This document shows positions 6,308 through 63,600 of a stretch of 64,000 bases of DNA, piece by piece. Position numbers and translations under genes: made by a program. Source of the DNA: Bolinopsis microptera (taxonomy: Eukaryota > Ctenophora > Tentaculata > Lobata > Bolinopsidae); assembly GCF_026151205.1 (NCBI RefSeq), contig NC_087078.1, positions 12,197,118 through 12,261,117 on the forward strand. The letters run 5' to 3'. The notes under the pieces are model-generated. The model did no database searches. It had not been told where the DNA came from and was given only the letters and a program-made list of their open reading frames with translations. Position 1 is the stretch's first letter, and each line of letters starts with the position of its first letter.

Positions 6308-31001
<24,694 letters not shown>

Positions 31002-36233: not shown

Positions 36234-36460
36234 TCAAGTGCCATCGGGCCATTTCGATAAGAAAGCGGCGCGCGCTACTCACAGGAGGAGCAAAGTGCAA
36301 AGAAACTGCCACAAACTGTTACTAACTGCTACAAACTGCCACAAACTGCCACTAACTGCTGTAGCAGTTAGAAGTAGTTTGTAGCAATTTGTGGAAGTTT
36401 CTTTGCACTTTGCTCCTCCTGTGTACTTCGAAGAAATTTAGACGAACAACATTTGTCAAA
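36234..36460 (+). repeat. CpG-rich module Y, copy interrupted by a palindromic insertion
   Basis: The second half of module Y (AAGTGCCATCGGGCC ... GCGCGCTACT) is split at TACT by the 144-bp palindrome 36280-36423. It resumes as TACTTCGAAGAAATTTAGAC. Confidence 0.8.
36280..36423. mobile_element. 144-bp foldback palindrome with 4-bp target duplication (TACT)
   Basis: The left arm begins CACAGGAGGAGCAAAGTGCA and the right arm is its reverse complement, ending CCTCCTGTG. Arms of about 70 bp carry some mismatches toward the centre (ACTGCCACAAACT-like repeats). It is flanked by TACT on both sides (36276-36279, 36424-36427). The uninterrupted copies of module Y show the empty site GCTACTTCG. It is therefore a mobile foldback or MITE that inserted after the module had multiplied. 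Confidence 0.88.
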
Positions 36461-36569
36461 TTCTGGCCAAACAAAAACTTATACATTATACAGACTTTCT
36501 TATTTGATTCACGATGTCAATCCTTCGCAGCTCGGCGAGGCCTTGTAGGTTCACAACCTACCAGGACGC

Positions 36570-36689
36570 TTGACCATTGTTAATGATCTGGCCCGGCGCG
36601 CGCTACTTCGTAGCACTTGCCATCGGGCATTTCGAGAAGAAAGCGGCGCGCGCTACTTCGAAGAAATTTAGACGAGTAACATCCGTGAA
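36570..36689 (+). repeat. CpG-rich module Y, copy 3
   Basis: Near-identical to 35259-35380 and 36988-37108. It is preceded by a GTAGGTT...AACCTACCAGGACGC text that matches the inverse of 35843-35865. This points to rearrangement within the cluster. Confidence 0.8.
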
Positions 36690-36987
36690 CCAGGACGCGC
36701 GCCGAGTTTGGTAAATATATTGAACAGATATTTTACGAGTATCACCCGTTAAGGCGAGGCCCAGTCACCAAAGCACAGTGGTGCATTTCGCCAATGTACG
36801 GTTGCGAGAAGATGCGCGGCGCGGCCCAGTATATAGTGCATCCCGCTATTGTATAGCGATGCGTTACTGTGGCGCGCCGCGCACTCAATGAGGCTTCTCA
36901 CTGCTAGATCGGCGAGATGCACTACTATGCCGCGCCGAGCTGCGATGAATTGACATCGTCAATTAAATCTTGACATACGTTGCATGC

Positions 36988-37108
36988 TTGACCATTGATA
37001 ATGATTTGGCCCGGCGCGCGCTATTTCGTAGCTCGTGCCGTCGGGCCATTTCGAGAAGAAAGCGGCGCGCGCTACTTCGAAGAAATTTAGACGAGTAACA
37101 TCCGTCAA
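36988..37108 (+). repeat. CpG-rich module Y, copy 4
   Basis: Same unit, a few substitutions (CGCGCTATTTCG in the first motif). A GCGATGCGTTACTG... module precedes it at about 36857, matching 35713 and 36127. Confidence 0.8.
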
Positions 37109-37607
37109 GTTGCATGCCACTTTTCGCGCGCGAAGCCGAAGGGATACGAAACATGCATCAAATTAAATCCCGTGCTACAACTTTTTATTGCTTCAACCAG
37201 AGCCCTCCCGCTTGCCCAGCAGACCTTACCGGCTAGCGCATATTACTACAGGGTGTAGCGATATTACTACAGGGTGATTGCCTTTTCACAGCTTGTTGAA
37301 CTCCGCGCGCGCTCGTTATTTCATTGCATTTGCATGCTTCAATTATTCCAAAAATGCAATTGTACCGCGTACCACGTGATACGATTCAGCCAATCAGAGA
37401 ACAACAATCCGCAAAGTTAAAGCTGCGCAGTTTTATAAGGCCAAAAATATGACTTTTCGGAATAGTTCAAAATCTACAGCGTTTTTAATTTTCCTCCTTG
37501 GGGGAAACGTTATTTTTACAAGCTAGGCGAACATTTTGTTGAAAACCAAACGTTTCTATCTCTTTTACTTCCAAAGTTAGGCCCCTAACGGTAAGGTTTC
37601 CTGGGTG

Positions 37608-37723
37608 CAGTAGCGCGCGACCGCCGAAGGCGGCAAAGGCCATATTATAATGTACTTGTGAAACAAGCGCGTCCCGCAGTACGCGTCACGCAGTACGCGT
37701 ATACACATATATGGCTATGTGAA
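37608..37723 (+). repeat. CpG-rich module X, copy 2
   Basis: Matches 35042-35125, with an added local duplication of GTCACGCAGTACGC. Confidence 0.75.
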
Positions 37724-40405: not shown

Positions 40406-43400
40406 TCAGCTCTCTTTGATGTTGGACTCAGGGGTTACCAAGGGAGACGGTACAGGGGAGGGTGAGGTAACCATGGAAACAGGATTGTTACATTTGTTGG
40501 TAATCAGCTCGCAGACCTGCGAAACAAACTGGTTTTAGTTTAACTTTACAATCGGACATCACATCTTCAAAACAAACAGCAGGATTTGGGTTAGAATGTT
40601 AGTTAAATAAATAATTTTTTTACAGAATAATTGTATTCCCAGATCACCAAACCCCTACCTTCACAATGAGATGATGTCTCTTCAGCTCTATTTCAGCTTC
40701 CCTCTCCACTCTCTTTCTCTCCCTTTCCTCCTCCAATCGGATTCTCTTTTCGTTCAGGGACAGGAACGCTTGGTCTCGCGCTTGAAAATACTCCAGCAAT
40801 TTATCTGAAAATATTAACATTTACTTTCCCTTTTCTCTTGCATTTTTTCCCACCACGTACATTACTTGGATAAAATGCAAAAACGCAGAACAATGAACTA
40901 CATCCAGTCTCCTGCAACACGTCCAGAAACTCACCAGTGATGGTGGAGCACACTCTATCAAGGTCGTGGTTAGACACCCCCACAGTGGTGGAGTGAAGAG
41001 AGTTGGTGACGTTGCTAGCTGTGGTCGTGGTCCTGTTCAACAGCTTGAGGTCCTGGAGTGAGTTGTAAGGACCCGGCAGTTTTCCCGGGACACTCAGTGC
41101 GTGGAGTTGAGACTGCGTCAGGATATTCTGAGGGAAGCACGGCATTTAGCACAATCACACTGTGTTCGAGGCTGTAACAAATACATTTCAAAGCCGCAAG
41201 GCTAATTTAATGAGTAAGATACCAAAAAAGCATATTTGGATTATTTTGATTTAAAAGATTGATTGAGGCTATAGATATATTTGCTCAATTAAGGAACTGT
41301 ACTGATATGAACCATTGATAGATCTTAATACTGGCGGGGAGGGGAACCTCAGCGACTGTGGAGTTTGATGGGTCGAAACAGGAAGCTATCTAGCTAATAG
41401 TAGTGGTCACGTGCTAGAAAAAAAAACAAAAAACTGTAGTTCGCCTTTCCATATATTGGGACCATGATTCATGCAGATAACCATAAGAAAAGAAAGATAA
41501 GAATAGAAAGTGAGAACATATAATAGCTAACAACAATATAATAGCTAACACCATTATCTAAGAGGGTGATCACCCTTACCTGCAAGTACTCTTCAGTAGA
41601 GAAGTTGATGAGACTAGGAGAGGCAGGACGCGGTCTCTTATTGTTCTGGGGTGTCCTGGGCATGCTCATTGGAGGACTAGCCATGGTGGACATCAGAGAG
41701 GAGGGCACCGTCGTCTTGCAGCCTGGTGACCTGGTGGAATTAAATGTGTTATGTTTTAGAATAGTCTAGAATAGTCTAGAATAGAATAGTCTCTGAAATA
41801 GGCTAGAATAGTCTCTAGCATAATCCTGCAAGGTATGCGGCATTGCTAGATATTGAGCCTACTTCTTTACACCCAAATATGGATGAAGTATGAGACTTGA
41901 AGGTATTTGAAATGATAGGTTTGCATCTTCAAGGAGCCTACCCCATGGTGGTGCTATCCGCCATTTTAGGAGAGGTTTTGGAAGGAGTAGACGTCATCGT
42001 GTCAGCTTTGAGGAGCTTCATTAAGGAGGCGTAGTCTACTGCTCCTAGCTTGTTGTCTGCCAGACTGGTCATCGGCTGAAAAGGAGGGTGGTTACACGAT
42101 CAGTCAGTAATTAAGAGTTTCTAATGATTTGTAACTGAATTAATAGTATGTTGAAATAACAATTTCAATGGAGATTTTCTGAATTAGGTATTATATTGCA
42201 GCTGCCAAAAATTTAGCCATAGGTTATTAAATCTTTAATGATAATATTGTAAACAAATGGCACTACCACAACTACATCGGCCAGTGCCATAGTTCAACAA
42301 GTAGAAAGCAGGTGTTTTGAAACCATGACAATTCACAGAAAATCAACAATAGAATTATAGTGAACCATCTCTAAACCAGCTGTTGAACCGCAAACCTACA
42401 CACTGTAAAACACAGAGCTAATAAACGTAAAACAAGCACTAACCAGCAAAGAGGCAGGATAGGAAGCCTTGAGCTGGTTCTGAAGTTGGGACTCTGCCAA
42501 CTGTTCCACGAACTGTTTCAGGTGGTCCTGGTTGACATTACTGCTGCTGTTAACAGTGTTGTTGTTGGTGTTGTTGGTGTTGTTACTGTTGTTTTTCTCC
42601 TCGTCTGAGTCCCCCCGTTCTCCCTCTAATACCAGGTCCCCGTCGCTGACACGTGATTCTTCGTCACTTTCCACGTAGCTCTATAGGAGAGTTACAAGTT
42701 ATATTGGGAAAGTGAAGCTGGGTAAGTTTGGACTTATCTTGCTTATCTAGGTTATTGACGGCTTGTCCGTTATAACAATAGAGTGAGTTATGTCAGGTTA
42801 GTTTGGAAATTTTCGGGTTAGCTCTTAATTCTTGCCAACATACTCGCAGGACCTGATATTAATTGTAGGTGTTGATCTATTTCTTTTCAAGTATTTCCCA
42901 TTCATAATGCAGGTCCCTCGAAGTAAAAAGAGGAGCACTTTTCTCAAAGCACCAATCAGATAACAGAACTAACAGATCTACTCTATAATCGCAGAATCGT
43001 CGTGCAAATATTTGCCGACTCAAAGCGGGCCTGGTAACAGCAGTTTTCGGAACACAATGGGAAGCGCTAAGCGCAATTGCGGGAGATAAAGGGCACAAAG
43101 GGGGGTGGCAGAGGGGGGTGCTCGTCAAAGCACTCAGGTATGGGCTAATGGGGAGGGAGCCAATGAGAGCAGCAGACCCACTATACCCTCTACAAAGCAG
43201 CTTTATAGCCCCAGGCACTTCGTCAAACCCGCTTTTAGATCGAGTCTTGATTTGCACTGCACTTAAGTCGAGTGTGATTGGGCGGGACCGCGTCACGTGG
43301 ATTGCTAGCTGCTACACGTGCAAACTGCATTAGACCACGTGCAATATTCTCTAGACATTTAGAGGCGTTTTTTTGTTAAAAGCACTCTATTGTCCCAAGG

Positions 43401-46400
43401 TATTGATTTCTCAGGTCACGCTGTCACTCAACCAGACAACGAAATTTCCATTACGCCGCGAAGCTGTATTATCATAGAAACATTAGCGGAGGCCCATTGC
43501 GGCATTATTAAGGAAGTGTTGTAGGGCCGTGTTAAAATTCCAACTATTTGAAAGGCTAAAAATAAAAAGTTGGTTTCGGTGCCCCAGCATAGTTTTAAGA
43601 ATTATCTGAGTTGAGACACAGTTAATAAACTGCGGAGTGACTAAAAAAACAGAAGCCTTTAACCAAACACTCTACCTAATGCTCTAATGACTCCAACTAC
43701 CGTAACATGTTATACCAGATAACGAGAGATAACTTTATCATATTGATCATAATGTCTTTCACAAGATATGGTCTGAATACCATTATGACACTCATTTTAT
43801 TTGCATGACTTTATCTATTTTGCAAGCAATATCATGTGCAAAACTACCATGTAACATCCTCCGGGTTACATTAAGTTTTATAGCTCTTAAGTTCATAGCT
43901 GAAGAATTTTACAACGTTAACCACCTTGCAGCGAGGAGCAGGGCTGCCTAACGACCTAGTGAGCATCACACCGTTTTAGCTGTTAAATAGATAATGGAGC
44001 ACCAATCGACTGAAGTTTTACCTAGTCTAACGAAGGTATATATATTATATATATACGGTGGCGGGGTACTAAAAGAATAATGATTTAAAAGTAGATCTAA
44101 ACTGCACCTGTTCAGCCCTCATCGTCATGGCAACAAGATAGCCCACGTGACATCCCCCCGTCTTGTGATTGGTTAGTTAGCCCACACCGCCAGCTCCCAT
44201 TGGTCAGCGAGCCTATACGGCGGAGTTTCTTAACACCAGATTAGACTTAGTGGACATTGTTTTTCAGAACAGAAGGACACCTCTTAACAGATAGCACCTG
44301 ATATTGCAAACAACATGCCCACTCGATAAATGAACGATTAGCAAGTCATCTAAACAACATATGAGACGAGTTTAAGCAGCTCTAATTCTGGAGGGAGAGA
44401 GAAAGGACACGACTAAAAGGGCTGGACTGAGAAATATGGCGAAGATTAGCAGTGGTTATCGGGGGAGTGTCAAATACAGGTATTGGTTAGGTTTGGTTAT
44501 TGGCGAATTATGATGGAAAGTATTCGGTAGAGCATGGCATGTCGCAGATTCTAAAATTATCAATTTTGCTGACTAGATCCACGGGTAATTGCTTACCTTC
44601 TAAGACATGTCACGTGACTGAAAACAGAGTGGAAAGATAGGCTGTGCTAAGTTAGGAAGTACGTCCACATAGTAGGTGGCTGTGTTTGTTATCCGGCAAA
44701 TGAGCATTTTGAATTCTTGAATTCTGATCAAATTCCTGTACCATCTTAAAAGCGGAGCAGCCCTATTATGTAACTAAAAAAGTACAGGACACAGGTGCCT
44801 TAGGAGTAAGGATCTTTAATACTTGTGATTTGAAGACTCCCGGTAATGGTTTACTTAATTGTTTCATTATAAAATATGGTATTCGTAAAATGACGAAAGT
44901 TCAAGTAAATCCGTAAATTGGTGAATTAGAACTAGACTTACAAATGTATTTGACTACATACGTAAGATACTAATTGCCCCACCGGTACCACACAAATCAA
45001 GAGAAAGCGAAAACGGAGTCTCGGCTGGGACATTTTAGGTGGTTCTAGCAAATGCGGTGAGACAACTTTGAAACTATATACTCTATATAGATCCGGATTC
45101 AGAGAATATTGTTTCAATTGTGGCAGTGATTATCATACAGCTGAGCACTATAGCTGCTTTCAAGGGTCATCCTAAAAAGTATTGGGCACAACTCACTAGA
45201 CAGTTCATAAGCAAGTTGCAGACTAGTGTGCTGTATGAGACAGATAAATATACGGATAATATGGGGCGAAGTGTTTCAAATACAGCACGTTTGATAAAAA
45301 AGCTTTTAAAAATTACTGTCCACTACTTGATCAATCGGTCGATGATAACGGGAGAAAAATTAATAAATCTTTTGTTTAGGGCCAAAAAAATGTCACGTGA
45401 TCTCACCTTGCAAGCGTCCTTCTGACTGAGCACAGCATCAATCTCGTTGTAGAAAGCACAGTATTGTGGCTCATTTCCGGGCTGTCTGTTGTGGTTCACA
45501 CATCGGTAGTATGTGCTCTTCAGCCTGGAGAATAGTGGGTTAGTTTATTGACAGGTAACTACTATTAAAGTTGCAACTAAAAATAAAAACTATTCCTCGT
45601 TGGCTGTAATGATTGTAGTCAGACTATAAGAGTGCCAATCAGATGGTACTTTTAGTCAGGCAACATTCGAATGGGAAAATATTTAGTTGTTTTAAAGTAG
45701 CGATCAAAAATTCAGAGTATGAATCTTTATTTTTTATTATGGAGCTCGGTTTGTGCTTCTTCTCAAGAAAACAAATATTTTCACTTCGGATCTCAGAGCT
45801 AAGCTTTGATACCAATTATTCAGACAAGTAATAGTTTCAGTTCAGGAATAATAAACATGCTCTGTAATTCCTCAGCTTCATGGCCAGTTCACGTTAACAA
45901 AGCAAGATTACCCGGACACATGGAAACCCAAGCCCAAGATAAAACAGTCTGCACAGAATGCGAGCTCAAAAGCTCCCGCAAAGACGGATATAAGCACAAA
46001 GCAAGCCCAGGCAAGCTGAAACAGACATGTGACTAGGGAAATAAGGAGGATGGAAATCCCACCTGTGCATCAGCGCCTCGCACTGCTTGGCGTCTCGACC
46101 GTAGAAACCGGCTCTTTCCAGCATCTTACCCATCTCCTCCCACAGGGGCCACTTCCGGGTGGCTTTCTTGAACTTCTCCTGCATGTCCGGGGCCGACCAG
46201 ATACTTACCTGAAATAAAACGGTGATAGTTAGCATAAAATTGTAAGGGAATCAAGACAACCGAAGGGAATCAGGATAACCGAGAATCAGGACAACCGAAA
46301 AATCAGTTGAAAAGGAGGAAAAGCTAAATTTATCAGGAAAACTCAAGTAAGATACAATTTTCCATAATAAAGCTATAAAGCTTGAAACAAAACCCACCAA

Positions 46401-47882
46401 ACAAGCCTGTTCCTCATTACTCCAGTTGGGGGCTCGCTTGCGTGCCTTCTTCATCAGTGCGCTGGACGGCAGTATCCCCGCGGGGGTGTACTGAGTGAGT
46501 TGCTGCGCGAGCGCTGTGGGTAGCAGTACGTGCTGACCGTCCTGAAATGGGTGAGGTTTAGATTAGAGGTTTGTGTAGAAGTGAAGGTTCAGATTGTGTT
46601 TAAAAGTGCGTTTGGGCATTCAGTTTTGTTAAAGAAAAGGTAGGAGTTTGCATATACCTAAATTTGTATATTTATAGACTGCAAGTGCACGGCTTTGAGA
46701 CTTCGACACTAAAAATAGGCCACTAGAAATTGACGGGTCGTTGGCTATGGCAGACTTCTCAGACTGGAAAAAACTTTGCAGGATTCATAATGAGAGAGGA
46801 CTTAGGATTTAGATCCATCTTTAAAAGTGTACTGAGGTAGAACTAAAATACCTTGATACTGGTTGCTCTGAGTATAGAAAAATTGAATCTTCAATCAAGG
46901 ATTGGAAGAGTGCTAAGCTATGCTCGATCGTGCAATTCAGAAAAAGATTGCGGAGAAGAATGGAGATTTTAATCGAAAATTTCCAGAGACAAAGTTAGTA
47001 CGGGTCGGGAATATTTCTTGAAATGGGAGTGAGTTCTTACAACTCTTATTTCTTTCATTTTTCATATTAATCATTAAGATTTACTAAGTATGAAGGAGCT
47101 TGAAATACAAACTGGTGTAAGAAGGACATTGACTTGAAATACTGCTCCTTTTTTTAGTAATATGCAGAAACATCAACTTTTTCTGTATGCGATCATATTT
47201 TTAAATACGAGCTCTAACTTATTCATGTTGACTAACTTGGTAATAAATGATAGGACAGATTACTAAACCAAGAGTTTGGACAAGGTTTACACTTTAAACA
47301 CAGGAAAATTTGCATTTTTCAAACCTTTAATTCGTCCGACCTGCATAAAAAATCTGATATCCATGCAAGATCAGTATTTATTTAAAACATTATTCTTGGC
47401 AGAATATAAAGAAGAAAAAGAACAGATGACATGAAAAGCAGAGGTATGCAGAGAATGATGATACTAGGGCAGGAACATGTCACTAACAACACATCAAATG
47501 GAGCGTAGTCACATTGACGACACACCAAATGAACCTGCATGTCGTCAGTACGACGGGCTATAAAAGTGTCATCATTCTCGCAATAAGAGCCATGAAAACA
47601 CTGAGGTGTTGTCACGACAACACTAGTGTTGCTAGGTGACAACACTAGCAGTAGCCTTGTCACAACATCGCCAGCGTTACCATGACAACACTGCTCAGTA
47701 GATATCATGGCAAGTACCTCGTGTTTTATGTAGATGAAGTCCCCGTTTTTGGTGTACCCGGTTGCACCTACGTCTTGTTTGAGAGGGCTGTTGACGCCCC
47801 CTGCCATGGAGGAGAGCAGACCCTGTACGTTGCTAAGAGCGGCGTTGTGTGCCATCGTGACTGCTGCTGGGAACAGGTTCAT
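40406..47882 (-). CDS. Myb/SANT-like (trihelix) DNA-binding protein with C-terminal coiled coil (10 coding exons, 514 aa)
   Basis: Coding exons in transcript order: 47718-47882, 46398-46541, 46063-46208, 45407-45524, 42444-42680, 41942-42075, 41580-41730, 40935-41127, 40659-40804, 40406-40516. All junctions are GT-AG and keep phase; the sum is 515 codons with the TGA. A Myb/SANT-like domain of the trihelix type (about residues 93-180) is split over three exons: NWSNEEQACLVSIWS, RKWPLWEEMGKMLERAGF, then AKQCEALMHRLKSTYY. After it come an acidic stretch (about 192-220), an Asn/Thr-rich run, a Ser/Thr/Pro-rich region with a basic KRPRP patch that could be a nuclear signal, and a Glu/Arg-rich coiled coil (about 430-475). 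This layout is common in animal MSANTD-type transcription factors, which bind DNA as oligomers; the exact family member is not identified. An in-frame TAG precedes the ATG, and a CATTAG acceptor lies 6 nt upstream, so a separate leader is likely. Confidence 0.9.
41755..41820. repeat. Short tandem repeat with core TAGAATAGTC
   Basis: AGAATAGTCTAGAATAGTCT is followed by further partial units. It lies in the intron between the exons at 41580-41730 and 41942-42075. Confidence 0.8.
43040..43345. promoter_or_regulatory. GC-richer intronic segment with three CACGTG boxes
   Basis: A local rise in GC and CpG within the 2.7-kb intron between the exons at 42444-42680 and 45407-45524. CACGTG occurs at 43293, 43315 and 43335. 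It could be an internal promoter or enhancer. A 139-codon minus-strand frame here shows no domain and is not called. Confidence 0.35.
47606..47691. promoter_or_regulatory. Cluster of three RFX X-box-like palindromes in the first coding intron
   Basis: GTGTTGTCACGACAACAC (47606-47623), GTGTTGCTAGGTGACAACAC (47626-47645) and GTTACCATGACAACAC (47676-47691) each fit the inverted-repeat GTTNCC-N-RGNAAC pattern of RFX-factor X-boxes. All lie within 86 bp, just downstream of the first coding exon of the SANT-domain gene. Function is inferred from motif shape. Confidence 0.45.
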
Positions 47883-48239
47883 CGTTAGCTAATGGTTAGC
47901 TCGTTTACCTATAAGTCGGTAGAACGTTTTTATCTGATTCTAAATAAAAATCATACATGGAAAATGTAGTAAATTTTCAGAAAAGGCGAGGATGAGTCAC
48001 AATACATATATAAACTTCGACAAAATAGATTACAAAATCTAAAAATATATTGAAACTGGACAGGAACGAATGAAAATAGGTTGGGTAAATACTGAGCTAA
48101 AGTCGGTAGAGCTGATGCTATATGGTAGGATATAAAAGGAAGGAGAGACAAAGTTCTACTGACCCCCTCCCACCCAACATGCATTAAAACAAAACTAAAT
48201 TAATTCGCAGCTCGTTCTGGTAACCTTTAACTCGGTTTG

Positions 48240-48620
48240 TTTGCCCCCCGTCGCTAAAAGGTCACGTGACCGTGCTTTATAACGCACAGAACTCGCTCAA
48301 ATCGAAGAAGCGTTTTCTTTTATTGACCTACTTAGTTCTCGAAATACTCACGTGATTGACCGAGCTGCGTCACGTGCGTTGTCATGACGCCACGTGACTA
48401 GCAACGCAGGACCACGTGAAACGGACGTACCAATCAGAGCACATATGGGGAGGGCTCACGAGACTGTGCGGGACCAGTGGGACGGGCGGAGAGACTAGCT
48501 GCGTGCTAATGTCTACCCATTGTTTTACCGCATTATACCCCCGCTCACTCTGCGCTGGTCAAATCTTAAAACCATTACTTCTAGCGGACCCTCATCACGT
48601 GATCCCCGTCCTTACGGCAT
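48240..48620. promoter_or_regulatory. CpG-rich candidate promoter with six CACGTG E-boxes
   Basis: CACGTG at 48263, 48349, 48371, 48391, 48413 and 48596, several as the extended TCACGTGA type. A CCAAT box (ACCAATCAG) lies at about 48429. The segment is GC-rich compared with its surroundings and lies 360-740 bp upstream of the SANT-domain gene's start codon, so it is the best candidate for that gene's promoter. Binding by USF, MYC/MAX or MiT/TFE-type bHLH factors is inferred from the motif. Confidence 0.5.
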
Positions 48621-51600
48621 AATAATTGGGTTAATAAGTTAGAAGGGACGAAAATCCGCTTGTTTTAAGAAAGTTGGCGTGCACGGGGAGATGGCTTAGA
48701 TACAAGATGCAGGGCATTAGAAGGAGCTGTGATTACTGTAAGAGCAAAGCCATTAGGGTAGATAACGGAAACTCCTACGTGTTTACGCTACTTTTGTTTA
48801 AAACAACAGCTCTGAGTACCGTCGCCCGGCCACTCTGGAACCAACCGGTATTAACATTCAACCAAAAAGCATAATTAAGTCTTGTGGTATTTGGCCTTCG
48901 GGGTTACTCTCGGCCGCAACTACTGGCGATTAATTACCCTGAAATTTGATTTTGAAACTTCACGTCGAGATGAGGAAACCCAATTTATTCCACAAGCTAA
49001 AATCTGACAGGCAAGATGGGCTATTACAGATCATATAAACGGGGAAACTAAATCAATAGATCATGTTTTTAAATTTTTTTAGGATACCTCGGTCCCTTAT
49101 GGTGGTTAATGGCTATGAGTTGACCACTAATCGTCGTAATCACAGGCCATTCTGATCAATTATTAGACCCAGCACTTTGAAGTGACAGTGAAACATTTCT
49201 TTAATTTTCGACAATTCTTGCCTAAACAGCATTAACAAAACGTGAGGATGAAATTAAAATTTCCCAATCTGCAGCCAACGGCCCGACACTCCAACATATC
49301 CCCAAGAGAAGGCTGCTACAAGTCAACTCCTAACTGAAACTCAGGGAGGAGTAAAAGTTTAAAGAGATGAGGCTTTGTTTAGGCTAAGATGCTTGCACAT
49401 TACCCTGGATATAAACTGAACACCTTACAGAACCACTAACGTGGTTACCAGAAAAGGAGCTGTTGTCAGGTGAGATCACCAGATGCCCAAACTGATCCAA
49501 TGTTACGTGTTAAATTAGGGCCGGCTTGAGCAACTGTAATTTGCTTGCCAAATCTCTAAACAAGACAAAACTTTATGGTAAACTACTGATAAGGGACTCA
49601 AATCATTTCCTGATATCAAGGATGTTGATTAAAATGATAAAAATCAATGGAAGTGATTAGGAAATAATTTAAGCTTTAGAAACTATGGAATTATCTATAT
49701 TTCTGATGACCGGTGAATTGTAGCTGAATTTAATCAGATCGATGGACGATAGTACAAGCTGGGTCATTTAGCATGCTACATTCAAGCCCATCATATAGGA
49801 AGCCCAACCCGCAAAATTTAAAAGTCAGGAATCTGTGAAATAAGTTACAATGAAAGAAGTCGAGTCTTAAAATTTAGCAAAATTCGATCGAAAGTCGAGG
49901 ATACAAGATTAAGAAAGCATTTACTAGTTGACGAATCTAGAAAACAAAGATTTTATTTAAAACAAAAAATGCTTTTTTCTCTTACAGTTACTCAAAATGG
50001 CAAAAAGTAAAATTAACGTTTCAATAGCTTACTTTTAGAGCCTATAATCCAAAGTCGAGATGATAGTGTACACAATTATTTGCTTTAACCAACGATTTAA
50101 ACCAAAGCTGAAGGTCCTACCGTAAAATTACCCCCTTTCTTTCTAATCGCCCCACGATTCGCCAACGATTTCTCTAAATCTAAGGCATTTTTGAACTGAC
50201 CGACAATGATAAAGCACGCATTAGGATTTGACAAATCACAAAACCCCGCAGTCACCGAAACATCAGGAAAACCTTTCCCGAGTGATAACACAACGCTACA
50301 TAATGGACTCCAGTCTAACTAACATTGCAGCGTTATAAGTCTTTGCAAAGAGCACCTCAAGATATAGTCTAGCAAAAGCTGGCTTTAGCATTTCCTACTA
50401 TTCTCAAAATATTTTCTCTCTTCAAATCTTTCTTATGAATTAACATTTCAGGGTAGATCATATCGGCTGATGACTCTAAAGTGTAACTTTTTTGTTAATT
50501 TCCTCCGTGAACTCGTACCAAGTATGATGTGATAACCTAGTTTTCAACCTTCAATCAGTCTCTTGGGCTTGTCAACAGAATGGAAAATTGTCATTCACAT
50601 TGTCAGTCTAAACGATAATTATTGTTAACTACTTGTCAAGGCTGTGCTTACAATTGTCTAAATTGTCTAAATGATAAATATACAGGTGAGGTCCAGATCA
50701 TTTTACTGGAAAAGAAGGAAATTCTGAAACTGAAATCTTACTAAAGCCGTTTATCGTGAATAAAATGAGTGCTTTTCATCAGTACCGAGAAACTGTCAAA
50801 AAGTATAAACTTTTCCTTGAGATTAAGAAAATACATTTCTACCAATACAGCGTAATATGAGGGAATAAAACAAGAGAATTGAGAGTAGTTTGAAGCAAAT
50901 TGTGAATACACCTAACTATGGCTGGCACAGTTTAAATAAAACACAAGATATTTTCCGTCATTAGACACCAGACAAAACGAGACATACTTTTCACAGCGGA
51001 AGAAACCAATCTAGAACGAAACACCGTGGTCCCGTAAACCGTCTGATAATTAACCGAGTCCGTATAAAATAAACCCTGAGTAATTGAGTTTCAGCGATGA
51101 ATAAACAATAAGACATTTAGACAGTTTAGGCTTGGAGATCTAACAATAAAAGTGACATTGATTCCCAGGACGGCATATTATGCCACCACGAAAGGTATGA
51201 ACCAGATATTCAATAACTCAAATAAAAACTGGTCATGAGCTGATTTATTGGGGGTGCTCGGGTTCACGCTGCAAGTTACGACACGAACCGCTAGAGCAGG
51301 GCAATAACTAAAACTGTTGGGGAAAATAACAAGGAGTGAATGTCTTTCAACCCGGATAGCATGCGAAATAAAGGACAGGCATCAAAGGAAAGCGTTATTG
51401 GATTAGCAGATTAAACTCATGAACGTGGTGAGAATGTTAGTTTAAGGCGAGAAAATATCCAGAGTTTCACAGCCCTGAACCATCTAACATATGCTGGATC
51501 GTAGAAGTCGGTCCGAGCAAACTAATCGACAAAACTGAATTAGCAGCAAAATAGGAGCGAAGTCGGGTCCGTGGGCTCATCACAAAACAAATCCAATCAA

Positions 51601-54600
51601 TAAGCAGGCAGAAAACGGGCCCTACACCAATCACAATGTAGGGTGGGGTAATTTAGTGACAAGAGGAACATTTACCCTAAACAGACCTTTGTAACTAAGC
51701 CGCATATATTAAAATCTTGTCACGCAGCGACCACGTGCGCGCGGCCCTCTACCACGTGACAATTCCCAACCAATGGCGTGCATGGCAACGACACGTGCGA
51801 GCGCGTAAACTTAAACCAAACGTTTTATTTCAAAGCAGTAGCGGTCGTTCTGGTTTGAAATTTTAAAGTAGGGACAATTAGTGGGGCTAAGTAAACAAAC
51901 CTCTTTCGTTCGTATCTTAACTTATGTCTGCGATCGGAAATAGGATTTAGAAATGACACCATAGTTTAAAACGTGCCCATTCTGACGGGACTTCCTCCTT
52001 AACAAAACGTGATTCCCTGTTCGGCCAGTTTCAAGTCCTGTGAACCGTTTGCTGTATGACATTCCTGATTGCATCCTATTAGGCTTGACCGGGGAGATTG
52101 TTTACTCTAGTCTTTGTGTTCGGACTATACTACTATGGTTTTCCGTTTACGATATGAATTACGTTTGCACAGGCTAGTCCGCGGACTCTACCGTTATCGA
52201 CTGTACCCGATGACACGTCATATCTGAGCATTGCTATGATTTCATTAGAGCTCTGATTGTTGCGGCCACCGTGACTTAATCATTTGGTTTATAGTTCCTC
52301 TATAGTTAACAATAGTGGTTTGACCAACTTCACCGCTCATAATCAAACCAAAGTGGCAAAGTGTCCTCCCCCAGACGTCAGATACCCCTTATACTGAGGT
52401 CGGTAACTTAAGTTGTCTGAACATTTCACCCTCTAGACTGTGATTATTACCAGCCTATTGCAACGTGAACATATTAGCATTGATGTCTAAAATGGTCTGA
52501 CAGTTTGCTTTGTTGTTCCAGCGACTACTAATAACCCGGAGTACTCTATCTCTCTCTCTCTCTCTCTTTCTGGAGTACCTGCCCACGCTACTCAAGCTGC
52601 CCACTCTCTCCCGATCTCCTCTCAGCTGACTAAGGTAAGGTTTAATAATATAACCGACATAATAACGACACATCCCTCCAGTGTCCCTGAAGGGCTGTGT
52701 GGCAAGAATTTAATGCCAGGCAGGATGTGGCCCTGTCGCGGCCGCAGACTCAGCAAGACATGACAGCTGGTGTTTTTGTAGTTTCTGTTTATTAGTCCAC
52801 TGTAGGTGTTCCCTGTCAAGTGATTATGGTAAATACCACGCATTTTTGTAAATTTATTCAGCTCAAAAATATCGAGCAGGCCCCACGCGATCGGAGGAAG
52901 CCTCTTTTGAGTGGGATCGAATTTGAACTATCGCCCACGTGACACAACTATAGCCCACGTGCAACACAACTCCTTATCAATCCCAGAACCAGCACGTACA
53001 GAGCTCGTGGTCTGTTATGTGGACTAATTTGATAGAATTATGCAAGCCAAAAATATGAATTTAGTCCTAGCAGCAAAAGACTGATAGAGTGACAGTATAC
53101 GTTTAAAGAAGCAGAAACTTTTAAAAAGAACCGGCCACGAATAAAATGCATTAAATTTCACAAGATATCCAAATGAGATTTAGATTTGAGATAAACCAAG
53201 TGTAATGCTAAACCGATAACCGGAAGACAAGAATTAGCTCACGCGTGGTGGTGATAAAAAGAGAAAACCGTGTTTTATTAAGGTATGCATTATTTATATC
53301 GATAATCTGGTGCTCTCACACACCGGGTGACACGACCTCAGAAGTTTGTCTTGTGACCCGAGAAATAAATGTTGCCAAACTAAGACACCCTTTTAAGAGA
53401 GAGAGAGAGGTTTTATGTCTTTTTTTTTGAGAGATTATTATTATCGCCTGGTTCGTGGTCATGATGCTTAATTACTCTTAATGGTATATTATCAAGTTAG
53501 GCCGGTGCTCTTGTTTTAAGTGTTACGCAATAAAATGGGATAATTCATCATGTAAATTTTTAGTCGCCAGCATTTACCATTCACAGATCGGTCTGAGTAA
53601 CCATTCGCGAGTGTTTTAGGGCTAGCAATTAGTGGCCCTGAAGGTCACTCGAAACTTAGATACTGAACATAAAGGGCAGTAATCATTTAAGATTGGGTCG
53701 AGTAAAAAGCCGAAAGGAGCGCTTTCGTGAACGCTTTTCGTCGGGAAACAGGTGTTTGGTTGATTGAAAATCTCTTTGAGTTACAAAGGGCGATTAGATT
53801 TAGATAAATAACAATCTATCACTATCTATGATGAGCGGGTGCGGTTGGAAAATTAGTGTGGCTGAGCCTACAAGTAGTATAAATTTAAATTTCAAATTGT
53901 GATTCTAATTCAGCTACTATTAAGGTATTATTAATTGCAGACTCGCTAATATATGAACTGCAAGACTCGAACTATCACCGGTAAAGCTATTTACGCTAGG
54001 GTGGGCTAATGCACGAATTTGAGAGGAATATAATGGTCTTATTATAAGAAATTATCTTGGATTGTGCCGATTTAAAATCAAACCATTGCAGATTTTGGTG
54101 GGTTAAATGCACCTGAAAAAGTTTAAAACTAAAATTTATTGTACATCTGTTCAGTATAACATTGGCTATATTTCATAATAAGATAATAGCCAGCTTAGCT
54201 AAGAATTTATGCAAAATGATTCGACGATATGATTACTATATATGATTACGGGCGTTCTCGATATTTGTCTGGAAAAATTCATTATCCGCTGAATTTTTAA
54301 AACCGAGAGAAATGCTTTAATGGAGGTAAAATGTAAGTGAGCACTATCTCGCCACCACCAGTTTAAAATTTTAAAGCTTTTGAAAGTTCCAATATTTTCA
54401 CACACGGGCATGATCCAGAAAGTAAGCGATAAAAGGTTTGGCCATCACGTTCGAAAGTTAAACAGTACAAAATTGAATACGGAATAATATTTCTCTTCAT
54501 CCCTTTTCGACGATACTTGAAGTTTGCTGTTGCCACTAGAGTGAACTGTATTAAGATTACATGAATATGCCGATTTTTACATCTTAAAACAACATTGCAT

Positions 54601-57600
54601 TCTCTCAAGACAGCGAATTCCTCAGTATATGTGATAATTTGATAAAATGCTTTAAAGCTATAACGAACGAGCCTCCCTCTCAATTGTTGTAATAAGCATT
54701 ATATTTCATGCCGGACCACCAGCACCCATGTTAGACTGAGTTCAATTAAATTTAAATTGAAAAGACTCCCAAAATCCTTGCAAAATTACATTTACTACCG
54801 ATTTCAAAAATGTCTACCGAAAACAAAAGTTATGGATATGATTTGATTTGGAACGATTAAACAATAATGTTAATGATAAATAAATTCTTACACCTATTGC
54901 ACGCTTCGACAAAATTATACGAAGGAAGAGGTAACACTTCAGCCAATCTAGAACACCAACAGCATCTAAACTAAAAGATCATTTACCATTGCCCATGACT
55001 GCTTGCATGCTAATCAATATTCAAACGGGTAAACACAGCTCATCGCTGGTTACTTGGTCACATGACTACAAGCAATCACGTGACACATGTCCGCTGCACG
55101 TGCACCGTTTTTTACCATGGTAACGCGGGGTCACCGGGTCACGTGCACATCTGACCCAGTTAATTGTAAAAAGCAAGTAAATGATACAAGACGCAACCCT
55201 CATCAAAACAGGGCTGTTTTAATTGACAGAGTTAGAATTAGTCTATTGTTGATCGCGATCTCTGGTTGGACATATTAACAGTGAGAGGGTATCGTAGCAC
55301 CGAGTAGCGTGGTGTCATAGCATAGCAACTTAATTTTATAGTATTACTATTAGTAACCGTGGATATTTAGTTACTTTGAGCATTGCGTAACCGCGGGGGC
55401 GGATGTTAGTAACTCTAGTGACAACTTTGATAGAACGGTTTCATAAGATATGCGGGACCTTGTAACCACGGTTTCTTAAAAACTATACTTGTTACTATTA
55501 AATTTGGAGACAATTGGGGCTCTAGTTTTTATAATGAGAGAGAAATTAAATGGCATGTTTTGGGAACTTAATTGAAAGTCATTGGATATTCGAAAAGTCT
55601 ATGGTTAATGATAGACAAATGATGTTACAGCCAAAACTGAAGCATCATTACCACTTTACCAGTCGCAGCTACAATGAAAAGATTGGGCCATACTCTAACA
55701 ATTTTACTCTAGTCAATTATTATCCAATTATTTGGTGACCTCAAACCAGGAACCAGTTGAAAGACAGCTGAGCTCCGAACCAAACCAAACACCTTTGACC
55801 GCATTTCCCTATAGAAACCGGTAACTATAGAAACCGGTAACCCTAGCTACAGCTGGAAAACAAGACAACACCTAGTAACCCTGGTTACTGGTTCTACGTA
55901 ACACGAAACTATGGGGAGATCATCACATAAAGGAGATTATACGTGTCAGTTTGAAATATTCCTCTAGTAGCTGTCCGGGTAATATATAACTATAACTCCC
56001 ACTAAATCTTTGTAAATACCCAAATGGTACGAAAAAGTCAACCAATCTAACCCATACTAATACACTAAGCTGTTATAGCGTGTAGATAGCTGCAACAACA
56101 TTTTGACATTTGGACACACGTCAGCGAATGACCACCCGTTTGAGGAGCTGGAGACTTGCGAAGAGACTCTGGCGGCTATTTCGGGACTCTGACTGCTGGG
56201 CTGGCGGCTAGCCGCTTGTTAAACGAGGGAACTGCAAGTGAGGAGGAGAGTAAACGGTAAACAAGGTGACCACGAGTAGGAGATATGCGGAGAGTGACGT
56301 GCAAAACAGAGGAGGTTACCCGTGGTAATCTGGCGTGCAAAACAAGATATAGTTATACTGGTTCTGTCAGATCTATTGTTCGGAGCAGGTTAAAGTTGTT
56401 TTGTTAGGTTAAGCTTGCTTGTGAGGAGCGTTGTTTTCGTTGTGAATGTAGGGCTGGGAGAGAAATCAGACACGAATTGCTTAAGAAATGTGATTTATAT
56501 AAAGCCTGTTAAACTCTTGGATCTAGAAAATGTTTCGTGTTTATGGACGTTATTGATTGAAGTTATAACAAACTGAAATTGTTGGAAGAGAACTGAGAGT
56601 GAAAGTGACCATAAAATCGAGTTATCATAAAATGAAAATTAAAAAAAAGAAGCTAAAATGAAACCAAACATTTACCAAAACCGCTGACACCAGCTTATGT
56701 CCTGGCCGATTGATTGAGTATTATACAACTACCAACAAGGCAATAAAACCAGCCCATATTAATTATCAGCTCAATATTATTAATTATCAGTTATCAACTA
56801 CCATCACTTGATGATATAGGGTAGAATATTTGAGGTATATTTATGTTAAGTACCAAATAAAATGCCTCGTATGTCTGGTGACGCGGTTAAAGTTTGGTGG
56901 AACTGCGAGTATCAGGAAAGTGGTAGTTCTTAGCAATTTGTAAACCAGGCTATCTATGATAATTATGTATCGGTCGAGAAATAGAGTTGCACGGTGCAAT
57001 TTTGAGTTTACAAGCAATCACGTGATATCACAACAACCAATAAAATCACCTGGGAAACACCACGTGGTTAATTTTTATTGGTAACCAATAACCTAGCTTA
57101 GTGTAATTTTCATAATATATTATTTCAGAAAATTTTCACCGGCGCTGTTCTATCGGGTGAACTGTGCATGACTTCATACCGAACACACACAGATAGAAAA
57201 TAGTTAGCACAGACCGTTACACCTAAAATAAAGTACAGCGATCAACCCAATGAATTCTGCTATTAATTACCCAGCCCAAAACTATGAACTATTTGAGCTT
57301 TGAGGGGGGGCGGCGGTAACAAACCCCCGGCAGGAAAGTACCCTCTCGGAAGCTGGTTTAATTCAGTGGCAGTGGTAATTATCGACAGCTGGCTAAACAG
57401 GATATAGTGGTAGTTAGTAAGTTGGGCAGACCTGGGTAATACAGTTAGCTCGGTCATGTGAACCAGCTCTTGTGCGAATATAAAATAATTAAAACGGTCA
57501 AACTGCAGTGCTTAGTTTGGTGCTCGGGGCTTGTGGTAATAAAGTAATAAATAATGGTTAGCTTCGCAACGTGCTCTGGGCAGGGGGATCAATGGTGTTG

Positions 57601-60600
57601 GTTTAAGGTATGTGGTACACGTTGTGCAAGAGCACTCTATCGAGGTTTAAATTCTAATTTGCCAGCTTGACGGTTTACACAATTAAAAAGATATGAGTTT
57701 TTGATCGACTTTTAAAACAAAGACAATGTTTTAAGGGCGCTCCCTCCTAAGCAGGCAAGCTTAACACTCGAAGAATAAGAACCAATTCCAACTGCTTGCC
57801 GGTTGCCCTATAAATGTATTTTCATTACTGGACTTACGGTGAGAATGTGAGATCTTTATGCAAATTCTAATCAATGAGGCGTAAATGAAATAGAGAGATG
57901 TTTATCCTCAATTTCAAAAACTTATGCAAATGAAACGGGCCCTGCCCTAAAACGTTTACCTCCCACTTTCTCGGGCCATCACCTTGTTTTAAGGTTCAAT
58001 TGTTCGGGGTGTACCATGGCACCAAGCCCCATTAGCGCCCCTCATTGTTGCTTATTTGTGAGCATTACCAAGTTAAATGAGCGACTGTGGGGCACTGTTC
58101 AGAGAACTTCTCTGAGAAGTTATTGTGATTTCCGCCCCTCCGGCAAGATTCGGTGCCGGTTTTATTCGGGTATTCAGTTTCAACCTCAATCCTGATTCAT
58201 GGTTCTATTTCTGTATTTTGTAGATTGTGTAATGTGAATCAAGCCATTTTGAGGTATATCTAAAATCTACATGAGCTCGGGTGAAATCCCGCTTGATCTG
58301 AGATTTATGAAATAATTATAAAGTGAGCTAGGTTGTCATATTCCTGTCAAACTTTAACTACTGCCGAGATTGTCACAGGTTATCTGTCTTAAGGGTGAAG
58401 AGCGATACATAAGTCACTTATCCAAGGAAAAGTCGTATAAATATTGTCAAAGCAAACTCAAAGTAAAATAGCGCAAGCTTATCAAACGCGTAAAACCCAG
58501 TTTAAAAGCCCGCCAGTTCAAAATGGAAGAATGTAGTGTTTTTAAAAGTCCAAAAGTAAAATTTCGACCAACTTCAGAGTTAAAACAAACATATGGGCGC
58601 AAACGTAATATACCAATATAAAAGTAAAAAAGGCGCTGGAATCAACACTCTTCAAACGATTATTCTGGTACAAAATAATGCTTTGCGTCAATTCGCTTCA
58701 ATTCAAATCAATAAATGCGCACAAGTTTCATTCCACTCTGAAGTCAGCCTCATCCACATACCGTTAAAGTTGGGTATAAATTGTAGCAAACTTTTTTAGT
58801 GAAAAGCGAACTTTTCCACATCATCGATTTTGTTAAAACCGAGGGATGGAAATAGCTCGCACTAAAGTAAACTGTTTGAGGGCTGGGCAGAATCCACGGT
58901 TTTAAACCTTCAAGTATGAAGACCAATTGCGCGTACTTGGCTGTGCCTAACTGCTCTGCTGCTGTACAAAACAAACAACCACCGAAACCAATCTCCCTTT
59001 GATGGACACTCTTTTAAGTGATCAATAAAATTATATTTATATGTTGCAAGTACAGAAATTGGAAGAATTTATCCTCAGAGCATGGTACTGAGGTATACAT
59101 GAAGTAAGTTACTACGGGCAGTTCCAAAGTTATTGTAGCTGTACACACGCGTGTCAAAGTCGTTCACAGCTACTGGCACTTTTCATCGTACTGCTCAAGG
59201 ACTTATTTTTGGTTGGACGGTGCCTCCCAATTCCCCGTTCAATTGATGAAAGGTGGGTGTACTGAATTTTAAAGTTTTAAACTGTCAAATTATACATTCA
59301 AAATGTCGTTTAACAAGCATTATTTCATCATGGTACAATTTTGAGTGCAACGTGTGAATCGAATTTTTAAAAACGCGCACCACGTCCAAGTAACAGTAAC
59401 ACCAACTATAGCACAACGAGATTATAAAAAGAATCGAAAAACGGAGGAGAAACCCAGGCCGAGCTCGGAATTTATCTTGTCGTGTCTTGTATAATTTGAA
59501 ATATAGCCTAATAGTGAGTAAGCATGTATCGGGATAAAGTGCATTTTATCATCCCTTGTTGCCAAATATCGCAGTCTAGACGATTCAAACCGGGGGATCA
59601 GCATTAAATCTATAGTTCAACTCCATCGAATCACCATCCGCCTTAAAGAACTTCACCTCATACAGTATTTAAATGGTAGCTCTCAAAGAACAAAACGATA
59701 TAAAATCGTATTAAACCGAAGCGACTACCGCGGGCAAGGCACTGTAGAGTTCGCATAAAAAGTTTAAAGCACTTAAACGACCTCCCTACTAACTAACCGA
59801 CCTTATTGGTTGCCTGGGATGTCACGTGGTCAAACTAAATCTCAACTCCTTCCTTGCGTGTCATCCTATTCACGAGGGTAAAGCCTGTCCTAGTCACTTA
59901 CAAAGCAGTGCCTTTAGTACGGAGGATGGGCGTCCATCCTAATGTCCTGGTCCCTTAAACGCTCATTTAGATTAATTCAACTAAAGAGATGTGGATATTA
60001 GCAGGTGTTTCCTTATATAATTGCCTCTGTGATGAAAACGCTTAGATTCAATAGATCTAGGGTTTCCCCTAATCTCACTCTATCCCTCTCTCCGCGCGTA
60101 GGCCTGCACGTAGATCGATCCAGTTGTTCTCATTTTTAAGGCTTTTACCCTGTTTTGGCAAGTCTAACTAGGACATGTGTCACCTGACCTCATCTCGGGG
60201 AGAGGAGTCGCGGATATCTTGCAGGGCTGCACACTATTTGTCAGCGCCGCCCAGCTCCATCCCTGCTAAACTATAAACTCAAAATTTTGAAATACCGTCC
60301 TGTCGTGCTATTTGTGTGACCGGAGATGACATTTTGACAATTTTATACCGACTGAAGACTCAGCAATGTATCTGGTAAATTACTAGTTGCCCTGAATGAA
60401 ACATTTTGATACTGTTATTTGTCGACTAGCTGGTGAACCAGTACTGAACTAGTCTAAACTTTTCGTCTTTTTTTTGAACTAACTGTAAATTAGCTCTACT
60501 CCGTCCTACGCTCCGGTTAATACCGGTCTCCTCTCCGCATCACAGGCTACCTGCTCGGCCACAAAAATTTGTAACTCACAATAACGTTGACAGTGTTATA

Positions 60601-63600
60601 TAGTACAGACAAAAATAGTGATAGGTCCAGAGGAGGGAGGAGAGGAAAGGGAAAAGCGTTAATGTTATCACGGATGGAAACAAATTCTTACGACTATAAG
60701 TGGGGATGATTACTGCTTACACCACCCCACGCCAACAACCTAACTCAAACTGTGACTCGAGGACGTGAATAAAATTAGACTGTCAAGAGGGCGTTAACCA
60801 CTTCAAGTATTGCAAGTAGAGAAATTCTCCCCAGAGTGAGAGAGAGAGAGAGAGTAAGAGTGATCACTGAGCAACTCTCTCGTTAACTGGTCAATAAGAT
60901 AAGCAATAGTCGGATACTCCTAACTCTCGTATCGGTTACGGGTGAGGAGACGAATAATATTGGCCCCTACTCAGTGCATAGTGCCGAATTATAGCTGCTG
61001 CTCACACCAATATATTGCCCTGATTAACAGACCTTTATATTGATAGGGCAATGGTGCAATTATCAAAATACGGGGGTGGGTCTGGGTAATAGTGTAATAG
61101 ACAAAAAGCCGGTAAACGACCAATAACTGACTGCGAAATGTCTAGCTGAGTTAACGATTGACGGTAGACCAATAAGCTTGGCCGATTGTCTTCCTGTGAT
61201 AAGGAGCTCACCAATGGCCGCCACAGATTACTGTCAACTGACAACGATTTTGTTTCTAGTCAATGATATCTTATTACTTCTGATTACTCATTATATAAAA
61301 TTAATACTAAGTCATACTTGAGGTAAACCACACAGCCCGACTGCACGTCCGTAACAATATCGCCATTTAACTGCGATGCTTGACTCGTTCTTAGCTCTCC
61401 CGTCGTAGCTTAACCCATCAAACTAAGGATTTGTAAACTCAAAACGAGGTGGAAAAACCGAGTCGAAAATTAGTGCATAATCTCCTGGCCTGGGACAGAT
61501 TATCAGATCCATCGATCACATGGCATTAGTATGAGAGAGAGAAAGGGGGAGAGTAGCACTTTACCTCGGCTGCTGACACGATCAACACCGCGGTGGGGGC
61601 TTGCGAACTACTGCTTCTAAACGATCGGACAATGCCCCTATCACGCAAAACTAATAGTTTTTGTAACACTAGCCACTAGCTACATTTAGAATTATCTTCA
61701 ACTACCACGTGACTGCTTACCGGTTGTCCTGAGAAACCAATGAGATTCTGCCGGTTGGTCACGTGATCGGTCTAGACCAATTGAAGTTTAGAATGAAATT
61801 CTGAAAGCAATGGTTGGTCGACAGGTGTCCGCTCTTATACCCGGTACTCGACTATATAATAATTAAACGGTGTTTGAAAATCATCCGAGAGTGAAGATTT
61901 ATCCTCGGATTACACCGAAATGTCACAAAATGTGGCTTCCGGATGGCATCTTCCAATTTAGAGCGTAACTTCAGCCTATACCTAGTTTTGGCGTGATGTA
62001 ATCTGGACCCGAGGTTGTCTGGTTCTCGTCAACCCTTGCCCCGTTTCATGGGGTATCGGTGTAACTTTCATGTGTTACAATAAAGCTCATATTTACAGTC
62101 TAGGGGATCAATGCAAGCGTCAGTCGAGGTTTCGTTTTACTCTTGAAAACCGTGGATTAAAGTAACGGTTGACTAGTTTGCTATACACGATCCTGGAAAC
62201 TCACAAATACCACGTGATCGCCTCTCTCCGCTGTTCATTGGTCCGTCTAGCTCCAACCTTCCACCCTATTGGTGGGGCTGGGAATGTTTAATTCGAGTGG
62301 AGTGATCAGAGAGCTCTATGTGGCCTAGTGGGGTAGTTAAAACCACGGATTTAATCAAGGAATAGAGAAACACCTGTTCGGTAAAGCGGGGGTGCTGGCC
62401 GTATATACTTAGGAGACCCCGGGCTGCTCATGCACCCTCCCACTCACACGGCCCACGTGCGCGCGCCACCCTCCTCCAACTTGTTCGTCGGCTTCACGTG
62501 GGCGTCGTTTAGCTGGTATAGTGCCATTAATTGGAGGTTTAGTTACACTGTTGCAGGCCGGTGGATTAACTGTTCAGAGAGCTACTGACTCACTTAAAAC
62601 TCCTTTTGAACTCGGGTTTGTGACAATTATAGGCGCACACTAAATTCGATAACCGTAACGCAGTGGAGGAGAATGGTATCTTGGGTGTTGGATTGACGAT
62701 TACAAAATGCGATTAAATCGAATTGAGAAGCCATGGGACCTGACTTTGATACAGACCGAAAACTGTTTTACCCCCGTAACTTGTTCGAGCGTTAAACTGT
62801 AGCAGTGTTCTAATTCTAATAGACTAAGGAGTTAGGGTGGCTATTGTCACCTTCAACTTATTGCCGTTGGTTTCAGCTAAAAAATATTAATGGTCCTCTC
62901 AATTCTAAACTAACTAAAGCTAAGGACGTAAATGACAAATAGATTCGAAGGCAGACTACAGCAATCTTTACCTGCAGTGGCCTCTTTATAGAGAAAGTCT
63001 TGTCTATATATAACTCAAGATTAGTAAAATAAAAACTGCAAAATTCGCCGCCTTATCGTACGCCTTGTATTTATATTTATCTGCAAAATAAAGTGGAACT
63101 GTCAAAACCTATAGGTTAATTGTAAGTTGGTAGTGCTAAATCGACAGGATCATCGAAGGTCTACATTCGATTATTGGTCTTTTTTCATTGGTTGTTTTTA
63201 ACTCCCTGTCAGACGATTGGTAGCTGCAAAGACCACGTGACACGGACAGCCCACTAATAGCACTGACCGGGGTCAGCTGCAATCCAGACATGTCACATTT
63301 CCCCTCTTAATTTACCTTCTAAACAGCAATAAAGTATCGAAAACATGACGATTATAATAAGTAGGGGGAAAACCCAAGTAATTGTTCTGCTGGACACCAA
63401 TTATCTTTTCAAATCTCGCTGCAGGTTGGGAGTCTAAGGGGGCTGGAGCAACCACCTGGGCTAAATTAATGAATCTTATTAGAAATAAATGTCGAAAATG
63501 ACCAGAACCAATATCGCTGGCTGTCAAACAGGATTCAAGCAGGGTTGTACACTATTAAAGGTGCCAACATGCCCTGTAAAATTAAAAACATTACCTGGCT

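Follow-up and report, generated by a model that had tools for sequence, protein, structure and literature searches.

Composite CACGTG and CCAAT elements at preferred spacings in Bolinopsis microptera: a candidate USF/NF-Y-type enhancer field

A 64,000-nucleotide stretch of contig NC_087078.1 of the ctenophore Bolinopsis microptera (positions 12,197,118 to 12,261,117, assembly GCF_026151205.1; hereafter the window) carries a dense archipelago of CACGTG palindromes (E-boxes) at window positions 41408–63239, a region of 21.83 kb. The region is distinguished by a composite grammar in which CACGTG and CCAAT words stand at fixed spacing, a feature missed by an earlier note made from the letters of this DNA. 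The archipelago is probably, with a likelihood that we put at about 65%, a field of USF/NF-Y-type composite E-box/CCAAT enhancers situated in the DNA that separates a Myb/SANT-like gene from a rhodopsin-family receptor gene and reaching into the former. A USF-like basic helix-loop-helix leucine zipper (bHLH-zip) dimer would bind CACGTG and NF-Y would bind CCAAT, the two contacting each other at fixed spacing. Successive dimers on one face of the helix would stack into a cooperative complex, and each cluster would act as an enhancer (or distal promoter) of neighbouring genes.

Spacing grammar and its candidate readers

Word counts around the palindromes identified the partner motif. Among all 6-mers within 100 bp of a CACGTG in the window, ACCAAT/ATTGGT ranked first (15 occurrences against 2.7 expected), and CCAAT at any gap within the same distance was found 26 times against 9.7. 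Between 44 and 68 kb, 12 of 37 ACCAAT/ATTGGT words lie within 30 bp of a CACGTG, where circular shifts predict 2.3. Of the 5-mers standing 11–13 bp away from CACGTG, CCAAT was also the most enriched in the 84-kb contig that holds the locus (8 against 0.28). This contig was combined with a random genome sample of 20 pieces of 10 kb (200 kb, G+C content 39.3%) to give 284 kb of sequence. Throughout these 284 kb, CCAAT was never found at gaps of 0–10 after CACGTG but nine times at gaps of 11–13 (0.8 expected; 0.26 per gap), and eight of the nine cases come from this locus. The inverse word ATTGG occurred 10 times at gaps of 17–20 from CACGTG (1.07 expected), with words belonging to neighbouring E-boxes ranking equal or higher at these gaps; cases at N18–20 are divided between the random pieces (five) and the 84-kb contig (four).

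Within the region, seven CACGTG-N11..13-CCAAT and four CCAAT-N18..20-CACGTG composites were counted, a total of 11 where 0.75 are expected (Poisson P 5e-10). By comparison, the highest number per 21.83 kb over 8.18 Mb of the genome sequence C1 was nine. Circular shifts across 41.0–66.5 kb gave a mean of 0.30 for the first arrangement, with none of 20,000 trials reaching the observed seven, and a mean of 0.31 for the second, with three of 20,000 trials reaching the observed four. The palindromes are likewise spaced regularly among themselves. All eight successive CACGTG distances of at most 30 bp in this interval are 20–22 bp, and 16 of the 18 pair distances of at most 60 bp are either 20–22 or 39–43 bp, about two or four helix turns; these counts include one tandem pair, and some of the 42-bp distances are two 21-bp steps added together.

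Both arrangements recur across the genome (264.65 Mb) about 4,500 times each, well above other gaps. The pattern CACGTG-N0..30-CCAAT was found 13,210 times, of which 4,507 fall at N11–13, that is 1,502 per gap against 311 elsewhere (4.8x). For CACGTG-N0..30-ATTGG, 4,569 of 9,947 matches fall at N18–20 (1,523 per gap against 192 elsewhere; 7.9x); the gap ratios are slightly rough, as the counts apparently give one match per start. The reversed-pattern control at N18–20 displayed no rise (64 against 84 per gap). Triple patterns of the form CACGTG-CCAAT-CACGTG with gaps of 5–35 amount to 1,739 + 1,242 genome-wide, compared with 300 + 315 for the reversed pattern, and in 29 listed examples, after removal of copies by eye, the modal distance between the CACGTG sites was 41 bp (7 of 29).

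Individual places were taken from the first 100 matches, which lie in the first 2.9–8.6 Mb of C1 and are not a random sample. The spacers of the first 100 N11–13 composites form 49 families, the largest with 17 members, while the first 100 N18–20 composites have 76 distinct spacers in 64 families, the largest with 14. These 64 families favour CCAAT(C/G)AGA and (A/G)TCACGTG, which we take to be the extended NF-Y site and the USF-type E-box, respectively.

A protein suited to the E-box half is encoded in the genome. The gene L051 contains a 280-residue open frame of the USF-type bHLH-zip class, whose best match among solved structures is USF2 (8ia3, E 6.4e-16), and a second USF-like gene (L052) is present. 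L051 can also be aligned with a human USF segment directly upstream of the bHLH, presumably the position of the USR domain. This domain reportedly mediates the contact with NF-Y, as the title of a 2021 paper by Bernardini has it, and work by Zhu from 2003 is said to concern HOXB4 and NF-Y/USF. In human K562 cells, most regions co-bound by NF-YB and USF1 are reported to carry CCAAT 17 or 18 bp downstream of the E-box (PMC7046753). By our own arithmetic, gaps of N11–13 correspond to 16.5–18.5 bp from centre to centre. The N11–13 spacing in Bolinopsis agrees with the human figure within about 2 bp, a margin that allows for different measuring points. An RFX X-box was considered as another partner after CCATGGTAAC had been noticed by eye near the clusters, and was rejected for lack of enrichment: 10.8% of the 84 kb is no more than 150 bp from a CACGTG, and this DNA holds 6 of the 42 near-matches.

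Density of CACGTG and the contribution of repeats

A recount of CACGTG in the window gave 42 sites, 31 at 41408–63239 and 11 before, in agreement with the figures of the earlier note. Its chance expectation of two to three per 22 kb was likewise borne out by 100 dinucleotide shuffles of the whole window (mean 8.05, standard deviation 2.75, maximum 15; about 2.7 per 22 kb). Extended forms are common among the 31 sites, with 11 instances of CCACGTGA and eight of TCACGTGA. Beyond 68 kb, one CACGTG occurs in the next 16 kb, and the G+C content drops from 39–43% to 35–37%.

The word is abundant across the whole genome, where it occurs 116,727 times (0.441/kb), compared with 46,866 occurrences of the reversed word; in the random 200 kb, 87 sites stand against 20.7 from a first-order Markov model (4.2-fold). 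The density of the region (1.42/kb) is therefore far above that of shuffled DNA and about 3.2x that of its genome, but the excess over the genome, whose rate predicts about 9.5 sites in 21.83 kb, is smaller than the shuffles implied. The probability of 31 sites at the genome rate is 3e-5 under a negative-binomial and 2.6e-8 under a Poisson model. When sites less than 100 bp apart are merged, 17 groups remain against 6.8 expected (Poisson P 7e-4), and the highest count per 21.83 kb across the first 100 listed genome sites (C1:13–388 kb) was 16. The regional count is unusual, yet in a genome that can be divided into some 12,000 such windows it is not unique by count alone. What had been described as a regional regulatory signature is a dense hot spot of a genome-wide class of CACGTG/CCAAT composites and not a property of this region only. 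As for the type of factor suggested then, a bHLH-zip protein of USF/MiT type remains the best reading, to which the overlooked CCAAT partner at a fixed gap has to be added.

The sites had also been described as not explained by any repeat. A genome search with 48.2–63.3 kb, which covers 23 of the 31 sites, yielded one other match of 72 query bases at 80% identity; this search ignores simple repeats and very common words, and eight sites at 41.4–45.4 kb lie outside its query. Merging sites within 200 bp of each other gave 16 clusters, whose flanks, compared with one another by BLAST, showed three reciprocal pairs only (14, 17 and 33 bp). The same flanks had no match in the random 200 kb or in window DNA before 41 kb. 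For the 23 sites tested, out of 31, descent as copies of one repeat family is excluded, and the description holds to that extent, with the exception of the pair at 52936/52956, the sole CACGTG pair of the region within a tandem array.

CACGTG-bearing minisatellites exist elsewhere. At C1:33217, 387673, 414997, 492404, 708736 and other places, as well as at window 6115–6161, minisatellites with differing units of 17–24 bp have a single CACGTG in each unit. One recurring unit of 20 bp contains TGACGTCATGTCACGTG, a 17-mer with 384 exact matches in the genome. A minisatellite origin was considered for the sites in general and set aside: such arrays are prominent among the listed genome places, but in the 284 kb only 13 of 134 CACGTG sites lie inside arrays of period 10–60, and 5 of 175 arrays hold a CACGTG.

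Clusters and genes along the locus

The clusters are described here in window coordinates. At the low-coordinate end, 43277..43341 (minus strand) has a CCAAT separated by 12 bp from CACGTG 43294; two more CACGTG sites (43315 and 43336) come after it in 21-bp steps, and the cluster probably lies in an intron of the Myb/SANT-like gene; a CCAAT-N18-CACGTG composite follows at 44144..44172 (minus). Upstream of the candidate exons of that gene, 48263..48434 (plus) begins with CACGTG 48263 and continues as a ladder at 48349, 48371, 48391 and 48413 (steps of 22, 20 and 22 bp) that ends in CACGTG-N11-CCAAT. At 51732..51797 (plus), CACGTG 51732 and 51753 (21 bp apart) are followed after N11 by CCAAT 51770 and, after N17, slightly outside the N18–20 range, by CACGTG 51792. 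The pair at 52936..52961, with a spacing of 20 bp, sits within a 2.2-copy tandem repeat, and 55077..55145 has CACGTG at 55077, 55097 and 55140 (20 and 43 bp) without CCAAT at either preferred gap; neither has an assigned strand.

A complete cassette, CACGTG-N12-CCAAT-N19-CACGTG with 42 bp between the CACGTG sites, is located at 57019..57066 (plus). On the reverse strand, 57061–57081 reads CCAAT-N9-CCACG, which we take to be the endoplasmic reticulum (ER)-stress response element, and overlaps a CACGTG site. Further composites were found at 59805..59828 (CACGTG-N13-CCAAT, minus), 62211..62241 (CCAAT-N20-CACGTG, minus) and 63216..63239 (CACGTG-N13-CCAAT, minus), and at 61706..61781 (plus) CACGTG 61706 precedes CCAAT 61737, N18, CACGTG 61760, N11 and CCAAT 61777. 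An unstranded CACGTG pair spaced by 41 bp lies at 62454..62500. Outside the region, CACGTG-N11-CCAAT occurs at 37373..37394 (plus) in the repeat-rich 35–37.7 kb, and its 22-mer is found eight times among the first 100 listed genome places of this composite. In the surrounding stretch (35067–37700), short repeats, both direct and inverted, are grouped together, and GCGCGC occurs in several of them.

The SANT-domain gene named in the earlier note is real: two minus-strand exons (45969..46562) match the Myb/SANT-like domain PF13837 of Pfam (E 1.6e-8), but only once they are joined by hand. Further candidate exons on the same strand, from 47.9 to 40.6 kb, were picked by eye. On the plus strand, a rhodopsin-family receptor match starts at L029:4996, about 5 kb past the end of the window. 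The CACGTG clusters occupy the DNA between these two divergent genes (about 48–68 kb) and extend into the Myb/SANT-like gene. A Pfam scan of 20 candidate open reading frames (ORFs) in 32–63.6 kb gave no match above the curated cut-off and covered a minority of the ORFs present, of which at least 100 (≥55 codons) lie past 36 kb; the nine scanned ORFs between the two genes had no Pfam match. An unrecognised gene may be present in this DNA, as just nine ORFs there were scanned. Rfam and tRNA searches gave no match.

Other repeats accompany the locus. A retrotransposon of the long interspersed nuclear element (LINE) type at window 18793–23108 has a 984-residue open frame with RVT_1 (E 6.8e-32) and an endonuclease domain, and upstream of it a 470-residue frame with a PHD match under the cut-off. 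Inverted copies about 10 kb apart (17511–17877 and 28018–28389; 72–86% complementary) flank this LINE region, and nested inverted repeats at 23820–24569, with arms 94–96% complementary and a 196-bp centre, are perhaps related to miniature inverted-repeat transposable elements. Long (GA)n tracts lie at 10180–10389 (105 repeats) and 11500–11678 (about 90 repeats). At L030:2156–3199, the frames are read here as transposase-like, the first having a DUF4817 helix-turn-helix match slightly under the cut-off, and L029:3328–4104 is a long array, several frames of which translate into PPSL / GGRE repeats.

Alternative explanations and comparison with known systems

Several observations weigh against a USF/NF-Y-type field. 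Composites involve 10 of the 31 sites of the region (11 if the N17 case is counted), and 21 of 31 lack an exact CCAAT at the preferred gaps. In the random pieces, CCAAT is not among the top words near CACGTG when the gap is left free, and their 87 CACGTG sites have CCAAT once at N11–13 and five times at N18–19. CACGTG distances in the same pieces (7, 13, 16, 18, 19, 20, 21 and 27 bp) are not restricted to 20–22 bp, and for this reason the ladder of about 21 bp is claimed for the locus only. The reversed-pattern control at N11–13 also rises, though less strongly (252 against 101 per gap). When each spacer family among the first 100 places is counted once, 10 of 47 fall at N11–13 (2.5x, P 0.013), and for N18–20 the figure is 10 of 36 (3.6x, P 0.002; seven of them at N19). 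As the peaks shrink on collapsing, repeats supply part of the genome-wide excess. Some composites, including the one at window 37373, sit within dispersed families and have thus been spread by mobile elements. In human promoters, clusters of NF-Y and USF are reported to be nearly mutually exclusive (PMC6238301). Finally, DNA upstream of 20 Ras-family matches contains four CACGTG sites in 26 kb where 11.5 are expected; this was one gene family, 17 of the 20 having an in-frame ATG, and 5' introns or trans-splicing could conceal promoters. A role as a start-proximal promoter motif was rejected for this family on this count. Given this scarcity and the intergenic position of the clusters, we infer that an enhancer role is the more favoured one.

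Among the alternatives, the clusters might be decayed transposons or minisatellites that carry CACGTG and CCAAT, were spread by copying and have no regulatory role at the locus. Many of the listed genome pairs indeed lie in tandem arrays whose differing units share CACGTG, several dispersed families hold the exact composite, the peaks fall on collapsing as described above, and the step of 20–22 bp is similar to minisatellite periods of 17–24 bp. Against this stand the single short genome match of 48.2–63.3 kb, the mutually unlike cluster flanks, the small share of sites inside arrays and the many spacer families, so that we regard this origin as unlikely. Chance would merely require that a dense window be expected somewhere in a CACGTG-rich genome; the roughly 12,000 windows and the negative-binomial probability allow for such a count, but density does not yield fixed CCAAT-CACGTG or CACGTG-CACGTG spacing, which leaves this explanation highly improbable.

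Slightly better placed than a repeat origin, but still on the unlikely side, is the reading of the same words by a different CACGTG factor: MiT/TFE, Myc/Max, or SREBP or ATF6 together with NF-Y. MiT/TFE factors act through the CLEAR element, GTCACGTGAC, at lysosomal gene promoters. Flanks of the form TCACGTGA are common in the region, and the sequence at 57061–57081 fits the presumed ER-stress element. For Myc/Max, holozoan ribosome-biogenesis genes are described as having CACGTG core promoters (PMC2570694). However, of the two preferred spacings one equals that reported for NF-Y with USF1 in the human account cited above, and the clusters are dispersed over about 22 kb instead of forming one core promoter. 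The clusters could also be loop anchors or insulators and not classical enhancers. Enhancer-promoter loops are numerous in ctenophores and have an anchor motif that is sequence-specific, but the motif described is GC-rich with two CpGs and is bound by the C2H2 proteins CTEP1/2, and a term search of the main text returned no CACGTG, E-box or bHLH (PMC12221973); we consider this function improbable.

The USF/NF-Y-type reading could be extended, tentatively and with less than even odds, to the genome as a whole. A rigid CACGTG-N11-CCAAT-N19-CACGTG cassette read by USF and NF-Y might then be a principal ctenophore regulatory unit, present in thousands of copies in distal archipelagos, whose first half would have kept the human geometry and would predate the split between ctenophores and other animals. 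Regulatory DNA seldom aligns between distant animals, and a two-word grammar with fixed gaps needs no alignment to be compared. If a comb jelly truly employs the human NF-Y/USF spacing at thousands of places, the contact between the factors and its DNA geometry may date to the earliest animal split, and ctenophore enhancers would be predictable from sequence. A literature search, with most subscription journals outside its reach, found no earlier report of a CACGTG/CCAAT spacing grammar in ctenophores.

Known systems share single features with the locus. In holozoan ribosome-biogenesis promoters, CACGTG is likewise the main motif in an early-branching lineage (PMC2570694), whereas here CACGTG and CCAAT form clusters over tens of kb and DNA upstream of Ras-family matches is poor in the word. 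The CTEP1/2 loop anchors also represent a genome-wide cis-regulatory motif of ctenophores, but differ in motif and protein class (PMC12221973). Regulatory segments conserved since the Precambrian contain the CCAAT box and the E-box as recurring words; they differ in being single elements that can be aligned, in bilaterians and cnidarians, with none in ctenophores according to the authors (PMC10735318). The human NF-Y/USF1 sites (PMC7046753) share with the locus a CACGTG followed about 17–18 bp downstream by a CCAAT in the same orientation, and a USF protein is present in Bolinopsis as well. By contrast, a second arm, CCAAT-N18..20-CACGTG, is equally common in the Bolinopsis genome, without mention in the consulted passages of the human account, and gives rise to E-box-CCAAT-E-box cassettes whose most frequent length is 41 bp between CACGTG sites. 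The region has ladders of CACGTG with steps of about 21 bp in addition, and here the predicted binding is read from the DNA itself.

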